Positions 57,405 to 64,000 of a DNA stretch of 64,000 bases are shown here, in pieces. A program made the position numbers and the translations under genes. The notes beneath the pieces were generated by a model that was given only the letters and a program-made list of their open reading frames with translations, had not been told where the DNA came from and made no database searches. The stretch is from a virus. The first letter of the stretch is position 1. Each line of letters begins with the position of its first letter. The DNA lies in IMG/VR virus record IMGVR_UViG_3300031703_000002, positions 16,141-80,140 of that record; one strand, 5' to 3'.

Positions 57405-57465
57405 TTGAAAATAAGTACTCAAAAGTTTTTTTATGTCAATATAAATGTTTATATTAGCATTATAC
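57405..57465 (+). promoter_or_regulatory. Early promoter module of RNA ligase
   Basis: TTGAAAATAAGTACTC, then AAAGTTTTTTTAT, TCAATA and the core GTTTATATTAGCATTATAC. Nearly identical to the module at 60043-60101. Confidence 0.7.
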
Positions 57466-57477
57466 TTAAAAATACAT

Positions 57478-58473
57478 ATGGTACTATTAGAAGAATATTA
57501 CGAACAAGGTTGGTTAATCAAACAAACCCATCCAACACTTCCATTAACTATTTGGAATTATTCTCAAGCCACTCAGTTTGAGAAAAAATGGGATAGTATC
57601 ACTTTACATTGCAGAGGATTGGTCACAGATAATGAAGGTAACATAGTTGCTAGACCATTTCAAAAGTTTTTTAATATTGAAGAAGCACAACATACACCAA
57701 CTAAAGAATTTGATGTCTATGAAAAGATGGATGGATCTTTAGGTATTGCATTCTATTATGATGGACAATGGGTATTTGCATCTAGAGGATCATTCGCTTC
57801 TGATCAAGCAATTAAAGGTGCTGAAATGTTTAAAGAGAAGTTTCAAGAATCTCATTTTGATAAAGGTTCAACTTATATGTTTGAAATCATTTATCCTGCA
57901 AATAGAATCGTAGTAGATTATATTGGTGAAGATAGATTGGTTCTATTAGGTAGAATCGGAACTATTTCTGGTGAAGAGTATTCATTAGATACTTTCAGAG
58001 AAAATGGATATGATGTCGTTAAAAAATATCATACTATTAAAAACTATGAACATTTAAAAACATTGAACTGGGAAAATAAAGAAGGATTTGTGGTTAAGTT
58101 TGGAAATGGCGATAGATGTAAAATCAAATTTGAGGATTATCTTAGGTTACATAAAATAATGACTGAAATCTCTACAAAATCGGTATGGGAATGTTTAAGT
58201 AAGGGTGATGATATTTACGAAATGTTGAAAGATGTGCCGGATGAGTTCTTTAAGGGGGTTGATGTGTATATTAACGAACTAAAATCCGAATACCGTTTGA
58301 TAGAAGAACTAACAATTGCAAGATTCAATATTAACAAAAATCTTAATAGAAAGGAATTTGCAGAATCGGTACAATGGAATAAGTATTCAGCTGTATTATT
58401 TAAAATGTTGGATAACAAAGATTATTCAGATACCATTTGGAGACTTATTAAACCAGAATATAAAAGATTATAA
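57478..58473 (+). CDS. rnlA: RNA ligase (T4 Rnl1-like)
   Basis: Start set at ATG 57478, because an upstream in-frame ATG lies inside the promoter core; 331 residues (T4 Rnl1 374). Nucleotidyltransferase motifs: YEKMDGSLG near 82 with adenylated Lys, FASRGSF near 103 (motif Ia-like), TYMFEIIYP near 135 (motif III), KEGFVVKF near 202 (IV) and KIKFEDYLRLHK near 214 (V). It seals RNA 5'-P/3'-OH ends; in T4 it repairs tRNAs cut by host anticodon nucleases with Pnkp. A P-loop kinase follows at 60700. Confidence 0.88.
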   Translation: MVLLEEYYEQGWLIKQTHPTLPLTIWNYSQATQFEKKWDSITLHCRGLVTDNEGNIVARPFQKFFNIEEAQHTPTKEFDVYEKMDGSLGIAFYYDGQWVFASRGSFASDQAIKGAEMFKEKFQESHFDKGSTYMFEIIYPANRIVVDYIGEDRLVLLGRIGTISGEEYSLDTFRENGYDVVKKYHTIKNYEHLKTLNWENKEGFVVKFGNGDRCKIKFEDYLRLHKIMTEISTKSVWECLSKGDDIYEMLKDVPDEFFKGVDVYINELKSEYRLIEELTIARFNINKNLNRKEFAESVQWNKYSAVLFKMLDNKDYSDTIWRLIKPEYKRL

Positions 58474-60699: not shown

Positions 60700-61101
60700 A
60701 TGAAAGAATTATATTTACTAAGAGGTTTACCAGGATCTGGAAAAACAACACTAGCAAAATCAATTGGAGGAATCCACATGGAAGCAGATCAATATTTTAT
60801 GGAAGATGGTGTATATAACTTTGATGCAACCAAATTAAAGTTAGCACATAATTACTGCCAAAATCAAACTAGTGCATGGATGAAAACTGATGGTGAACAG
60901 GTTAATGTTGATAAAATTGTTGTTTCAAATACATTTACACAAGAATGGGAAATGAAAGCATATTATGATCTTGCAAAAGAACATGGATATACTGTGTATT
61001 CTTTAATTGTAGAGAACAGACATGAAGGTGAAAACATTCACGGAGTTCCAGTTGAAGCGTTAGATCGAATGGAGAATAGGTTTGAAGTCAAATTAAGATA
61101 A
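60700..61101 (+). CDS. P-loop kinase (polynucleotide-kinase / N4BP2-like)
   Basis: A 133-residue single-domain kinase. RGLPGSGKTTLAKSI near 8-22 is the P-loop; M-E-A-D-Q-Y-F near 27 and V-S-N-T-F near 77 match the phosphate-acceptor 'S-x-D-x-Y/F' and 'V-D-N-T-N' motifs of N4BP2 and T4 Pnk kinase domains; NRHEGENIHGVP near 108 is the lid ('R...HGVP'). T4 Pnkp has a C-terminal phosphatase domain that is absent here. With the RNA ligase it could repair cleaved tRNAs, if 3'-phosphates are removed by another enzyme. Confidence 0.7.
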   Translation: MKELYLLRGLPGSGKTTLAKSIGGIHMEADQYFMEDGVYNFDATKLKLAHNYCQNQTSAWMKTDGEQVNVDKIVVSNTFTQEWEMKAYYDLAKEHGYTVYSLIVENRHEGENIHGVPVEALDRMENRFEVKLR

Positions 61102-62390: not shown

Positions 62391-62411
62391 GTTCTTTGAC
62401 ATATTGGTAAT
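62391..62411 (+). promoter_or_regulatory. boxA-like antitermination element, copy 1
   Basis: GTTCTTTGACATATTGGTAA lies between promoter and first tRNA. It matches the second copy (63847) and resembles boxA of rRNA leaders (E. coli TGCTCTTTAACA), the NusB/NusE binding site. Confidence 0.6.
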
Positions 62412-63846: not shown

Positions 63847-63867
63847 GATCTTTGACGTATTGGTAAT
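63847..63867 (+). promoter_or_regulatory. boxA-like element, copy 2
   Basis: GATCTTTGACGTATTGGTAA differs from copy 1 (62391) at two to three positions while surrounding sequence differs more. Confidence 0.6.
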
Positions 63868-63886
63868 AAAAAATAAGGTTCCTTAC

Positions 63887-63910
63887 AGCAAACAAACTCT
63901 ATAAGGAAAC
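63887..63910 (+). other. Hairpin abutting the tRNA-Leu 3' half
   Basis: TTCCTTA (near 63889-63895) pairs with TAAGGAA (63902-63908); the 3' flank continues directly into ACTGC of the tRNA-Leu 3' half. Confidence 0.45.
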
Positions 63911-63951
63911 TGCTATCGCAAGATGTGTAGGTTCAAGTCCTACCTCCCTAA
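63909..63951 (+). tRNA. tRNA-Leu 3' half without a 5' half upstream
   Basis: ACTGC (anticodon-stem 3' strand), variable arm TATCGCAAGATGT like that of tRNA-Leu(UAG), T arm GTAGG TTCAAGT CCTAC, acceptor 3' strand CTCCCTA. Both stem strands match perfectly the 5' half located downstream at 63969 (TAGGGAG acceptor, GCAGT anticodon stem). Confidence 0.6.
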
Positions 63952-63968
63952 CAAAATTAATACAAAAT

Positions 63969-64000
63969 TAGGGAGTGGTGGAATTGGTAGACACGGCAGT
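63969..64000 (+). tRNA. tRNA-Leu 5' half, cut by the window end
   Basis: TAGGGAG acceptor, then TGGTGGAATTGGTAGACACG (Leu-type D arm as at 63540) and GGCAGT, the start of the anticodon stem. What follows is outside the window, so whether a normal 3' half comes next cannot be seen. Confidence 0.75.

Follow-up and report, generated by a model that had tools for sequence, protein, structure and literature searches.

A permuted tRNA-Leu gene in a phage and a candidate class of small introns in phage tRNA genes

A tRNA-Leu gene whose 3' half precedes its 5' half closes a 64,000-nucleotide stretch of phage DNA (the window, meaning the whole stretch analysed) and belongs to a widespread and apparently undescribed phage RNA family. 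The family is recognised by a small element, composed of an 8-bp helix (P1) joining the flanks, the motif UUACAGCAA and an A-rich strand, which surrounds permuted tRNA-like modules and also occurs as a short intron in tRNA genes of normal order. The architecture of the element, its spread, its covariation and the anticodon arms restored upon its in silico removal are read directly from the sequences, which hint at a tRNA-splicing system new to bacteria and their viruses. With slightly better than even confidence, we favour small tRNA introns of a new class, accompanied by natural permuted intron-exon genes, in which the element would be excised and the exons joined.

The permuted tRNA-Leu locus

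In the window, the tRNA-Leu 3' part (63909..63951, + strand), comprising the anticodon-stem 3' strand ACTGC (63909-63913), a long variable arm, the T-arm (63927-63943), the acceptor 3' strand CTCCCTA (63944-63950) and A73 (63951), is followed on the same strand by a 17-nt linker between the acceptor 3' and 5' strands (63952..63968), on which the continuing contigs agree, and by the 5' part (63969..64000), with the acceptor 5' strand TAGGGAG (63969-63975), the D-arm and the anticodon-stem 5' strand GCAGT (63996-64000), where the contig ends. Re-reading of the sequence confirmed the bounds of the two halves, the 17-nt spacing and the matches of the acceptor (7/7) and anticodon-stem (5/5) strands given by the sequence-only reading. 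The 3' part is preceded by the P1 5' strand AGGTTCCT (63876..63883, + strand), whose partner strand AGGAACCT lies 11 nt beyond the window end (L042:5365-5372), and by the conserved motif UACAGCAA (63884..63891, + strand), which follows P1 and is common to all modules collected. In addition, TAAGGAA (63902..63908, + strand) allows an alternative pairing with TTCCTTA (63879-63885), which covaries within the Leu clade (TTTCTTA/TAAGAAA in L174). A boxA-like sequence TCTTTGACGTATTGGTAAT (63849..63867, + strand) stands upstream of the permuted gene; we assign it a putative leader role by assumption from boxA leaders in general, and a second such leader, TTCTTTGACATATTGGTAAT (62392-62411), precedes tRNA-Gln; with one ahead of each tRNA block, they suggest two tRNA operons. 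ARAGORN called nine other tRNAs in the window and made no call at the permuted tRNA-Leu. Between tRNA-Met and tRNA-Lys, a stretch identical in the sister contig (62980-63452) contains a pair of T-arm-like hairpins, at about 63308 and at about 63432, as well as several GC hairpins, with neither a tRNA call nor an Rfam match.

The window spans 16141-80140 of its contig (G000:C1, 80,140 bp) and stops at 64000 because the contig ends there. The locus is present in two further IMG/VR contigs from other metagenomes (L042 and L043), one of which equals the window's last 2,010 nt exactly (2010/2010) and the other its last 300 nt, the span compared. Both read on as ...GGCAGT-CAGAAACAATAGGAACCTGTTAGTAT and then, 26 nt after the 5' half, into an intact tRNA-Leu(UAA), so that no 3' half follows the 5' half; an artefact of the contig end was rejected on the evidence of these two longer assemblies. 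Reversed halves, matching acceptor and anticodon stems and no second copy, the marks of a permuted gene, are thus all found at the locus. The sequence-only reading had proposed such a gene in a phage that also encodes an RNA ligase and a kinase, with a tandem duplication and an intact copy beyond the window as the alternative. The next bases, set beforehand as the refuting test, hold no complete 3' half after 64000 in either of the two independent assemblies, and the tandem alternative in that form is refuted. The proposal itself was supported in part: both enzyme genes are real, a T4 Rnl1-type RNA ligase (57445..58473, + strand; PF09511, 71.7 bits) and a P-loop kinase (AAA_33; 60700..61101, + strand; 38.8 bits), each being a candidate partner only, and the permuted gene is genuine, its reversed order recurring in a diverged relative.

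This 165-kb relative (L008), located through a neighbouring sigma factor 84% identical to the window's and not through pairing, carries the same reversed tRNA-Leu. Compensatory changes have turned the acceptor stem TAGGGAG/CTCCCTA into TGAGGAG/CTCCTCA and P1 from AGGTTCCT/AGGAACCT into AGGTTTCT/AGAAACCT, P1 being changed in a compensatory way in other relatives as well, while UUACAGCAA beside the P1 5' strand is unaltered; the anticodon stem has likewise changed, from GCAGT/ACTGC to CTGGT/ATCAG in L008, where pairing with ACCGG is also possible. Since the arrangement recurs with compensatory changes, the locus is more than a product of chance. Among the Leu relatives the acceptor linker measures 17-21 nt, and A73 is retained throughout the clade. 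Furthermore, a covariance model (R1) trained on other permuted modules, none of them from the window's Leu clade, gave the complete copy of the locus a score of 59.1 bits (E 3e-9); the window copy, which is cut at the contig end and was matched over 63875-64000, reached 37 bits (E 9e-5). The Leu-clade alignment, in which P1' is misaligned in three rows, was not counted as evidence. L008 holds a second permuted tRNA between tRNA-Thr and tRNA-Asp (L008:9460-9590; R1 89.8 bits). Stand-alone P1-CAGCAA hairpins with non-canonical payloads (L042:5657-5715, L008:14553-14684) sit shortly downstream of the permuted tRNA-Leu and are kept across the clade.

Permuted modules and the intron form

Viral contigs were searched for CTTACAGCAA and then for a T-arm, and modules were collected among the matches listed. 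The IMG/VR pattern scans, which give a lower bound of family size, yielded at least 97 distinct permuted tRNA-like modules in at least 72 loci, covering many isotypes and often standing in tandem arrays. The consensus of 69 modules reads A-G-G-n-n-n-C-U, U-A-CAGCAA, payload, an A-rich strand and A-G-n-n-n-C-C-U-G-U-U. With rising cut-off of the scanner, CAGCAA gave at least 89, 69 and 42 matches, and control hexamers built from the same bases without overlapping the motif stayed near zero, with none at the top cut-off. Among 85,000 cellular genomes the same pattern found 93 stretches, only 7 of which were permuted modules by the same scanner. Covariation in the alignment of the modules (A1) is partly circular, because the pairing of P1, T-stem and acceptor served to collect them; free of this bias are L008, the D-stem, the coherence of the anticodon arm, the control hexamers and the jumbo-phage orthologues. 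Jumbo phages in culture, namely Serratia phage BF, GAP32 and CBB, are among the carriers of permuted modules. The idea that permuted genes fill gaps in the phage tRNA set was rejected, their overlap with normal tRNAs being equal to random expectation (17 cases, partial contigs).

Some modules carry an anticodon arm only, and 17 of 59 had a strict arm, with a correct 7-nt loop, U33 and R37, against 1.1 expected from shuffles. Short modules with the anticodon arm of tRNA-Lys(UUU) as payload were seen in jumbo phages (L273:7932, L367:7007, L368:6793, L369:8739). This tRNA is the target of PrrC-type anticodon nucleases, and the modules are possibly decoys.

Moreover, at least 41 tRNA genes of normal order in phages and mobile elements contain the element as an intron of 38-60 nt; control hexamers in the same scan gave 0, 0, 0, 0, 1, 0, 0 and 0. 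The intron usually lies between positions 28 and 29, in the order 5' exon, UA, A-rich strand, P1', short loop, P1, UnACAGCAA, A/U-rich strand and 3' exon. The element is also held in normal gene order by tRNAs of GAP32, BF, CBB and Kaldavass whose annotation makes them pseudogenes or 119-127 nt long. The intron of BF tRNA-Lys(UUU), a gene at 296567-296691, stands between CG (27-28) and ACA (29-31), and the tRNA spliced in silico aligns without gaps to the intact tRNA-Lys of PaBG (63/76). Exon pairing across the intron is kept (CG with CG in BF, GG with CC in pEa_SNUABM_50), and the tRNA-Lys intron is syntenic across diverged jumbo phages. Two near-identical Erwinia phages carry the intron-bearing tRNA-Lys in different versions (L371:142-325 and L372:142-266), and an HNH endonuclease gene directly follows the copy of SNUABM_50, which hints at mobility. 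Some intron copies were met in bacterial contigs, of which we inspected one with phage-like genes (L313) and one with a dense tRNA array (L303).

Joining of the halves and candidate explanations

A perfect anticodon arm (five pairs, a 7-nt loop, U33 and R37) resulted in 35/56 cases when permuted genes were joined from their own halves, as compared to 14% for mixed halves, and in 16/34 linear genes as compared to 8%; both observed means lay above all 5,000 permutations. Outside the Leu clade, exact removal of the element thus restores a 5-bp stem, a 7-nt loop and U33 much more often with the gene's own exons than with mixed halves, and the 5' boundary is UA in 34 of 64. For the Leu clade a regular 7-nt anticodon loop with U33 cannot be assembled, which counts against splicing; its product may therefore not decode, and decoding by the window copy is doubtful. 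ARAGORN called 41/42 and 87/95 of the genes spliced in silico, and these calls do not discriminate because mixed halves were called as well (236/284).

If the element is an intron, as we favour, it would lie inside the tRNA gene in the normal-order form, and the permuted form would represent the same intron opened in its loop with the tRNA closed at the acceptor, giving the order P1, UUACAGCAA, 3' part, linker, 5' part, A-rich strand and P1'. In either form the transcript can adopt a complete tRNA fold from whose anticodon arm P1 projects. The linker would most likely be removed by RNase P and 3' processing, and the P1 element most likely by cleavage and joining at the anticodon arm, so that permuted genes would pass through a circular or two-piece precursor. 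We infer the cleavage, the joining, the enzyme and the use of the product from the patterns described. The wider proposal comes just short of an even chance in our estimate: a new RNA-splicing system of phages and related mobile elements, in which structured introns of ~45 nt recognisable by P1 and UUACAGCAA would be excised from tRNAs by some enzyme or by the intron itself, permuted genes would yield circular tRNA precursors and the Class I RNAs of Dictyostelium are maybe kin.

The element might instead belong to an unspliced tRNA mimic, a reading we hold to be less probable, with P1 and UUACAGCAA as a stable protein-bound handle, like that of the Dictyostelium Class I RNAs, which would present either a closed tRNA body or just an anticodon arm and act as a decoy or scaffold, e.g. 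for tRNA-cutting or tRNA-modifying enzymes. It stays a serious rival because permuted copies have relaxed acceptor ends and no regular loop is formed in the Leu copies. The discriminator fits the anticodon in 11/28 permuted copies (9.9 expected if independent), which counts against a cognate tRNA, as compared to 12/22 intron-bearing genes and, in the loci with permuted modules, 466/531 normal tRNAs; G1 is present in 38% of permuted versus 67% of normal tRNAs, CCA is encoded in 11/85 permuted copies (linkers of at least 4 nt), 7/41 linear and 331/536 normal genes, and many permuted acceptor linkers are only 4-6 nt long. The anticodon-only modules, which need no splicing and count against excision, argue for mimicry too, as do matches of the Rfam YrlA tRNA-mimic model to permuted modules and of the Class I RNA model to short ones. 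On the other hand, the element also interrupts tRNAs of normal order as a short intron, and 34/41 of these have G1, and where permuted linkers encode a CCA it falls exactly at 74-76. The split lies inside the anticodon stem, whose completion requires the gene's own halves, and a displayed arm would therefore be weakened if left unspliced.

A further reading is a decaying remnant of a tandem tRNA-Leu duplication, with the 5' half lost from the first copy and the 3' half from the second. Duplication plus loss can generate such an order and the Leu anticodon loop is irregular, but the 5' half does not run on into an intact copy in either continuing contig, three helices show compensatory changes in a diverged relative and the same layout with the flanking motif surrounds many isotypes, which makes a remnant hardly credible. 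We also consider it very unlikely that a circular tRNA-Leu precursor is joined by the phage's own Rnl1 and kinase to give a decoding tRNA-Leu. T4 Rnl1 and Pnkp mend anticodon-loop breaks, and both genes lie near the tRNA cluster of the window; against this, Rnl1 was matched in only 7 of 26 large module-bearing contigs and is absent from the L008 contig, and the Leu clade yields no canonical anticodon loop. A Rnl2-type ligase was found in about 12 and RtcB in 3 of these 26 contigs, and an obligatory role of Rnl1, Rnl2 or RtcB was rejected, since 12 of the 26, L008 included, carry none of the three (fragments possible). Ro60 (TROVE) is nearly absent, with one marginal match among the 26 carriers, and a Ro60-linked Y RNA was rejected on this ground.

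Relation to known systems

To our knowledge, only group I and group II introns are known in tRNAs of bacteria and phages, and permuted tRNAs only in eukaryotes and archaea. A search of the open-licence PMC literature found no account of permuted or small-intron phage tRNAs, and the CBB genome paper leaves tRNA introns undiscussed. If the intron reading is true, a common, tiny and structured phage tRNA intron with permuted versions would point to an undiscovered splicing activity, explain the cultured jumbo-phage tRNAs annotated as pseudogenes or 119-127 nt oddities, and could tie in with the still unexplained Class I RNAs of social amoebae; if the RNAs are mimics, phages would instead possess a large class of tRNA decoys that has gone unrecognised.

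The group I introns of bacterial and phage tRNAs likewise lie in the anticodon arm, whereas the phage element has only 38-60 nt. Sensitive Rfam searches of element-bearing loci (E up to 1-2) gave no group I or II match, so that group I intron halves were rejected, and the element reached no Rfam family at its threshold. The permuted modules share with the YrlA Y RNA (RF02553) a T-arm, a closed acceptor hairpin and a D-arm in permuted order and score 31-41 bits (best 40.7), below the gathering threshold of 69, whereas pairs of the YrlA stalk are non-standard or unformed in the aligned phage module. Like the dictyostelid Class I RNAs (RF01414), phage modules have an end-joining stem with compensatory changes and UUACAGCAA beside its 5' strand, and they start with AAG and end with CUGU (69-module consensus compared with PMC7919456); short modules score 26-36 bits (best 35.8, E 3e-4 to 0.8), below the gathering threshold of 41.5. 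They differ from Class I RNAs in their permuted tRNA or anticodon-arm payloads, their intron form and their phage hosts; Kjellin et al. (2021, PMC7919456) reported that Class I RNAs do not occur beyond the dictyostelids.

The circularly permuted tRNA genes found in red algae, green picoalgae and archaea share with the phage genes the 3'-before-5' order and a short acceptor linker. The phage genes differ in their hosts and in the junction, where no bulge-helix-bulge was seen on inspection of the modules; the split falls mostly at 28/29, and the junction is separated from the 8-bp helix with UUACAGCAA by unpaired strands, one A-rich and about 5-10 nt long, the other of about 15-25 nt. In the algal and archaeal genes the tRNA is restored by joining the former ends, and by our proposal the phage genes would be alike in this respect.
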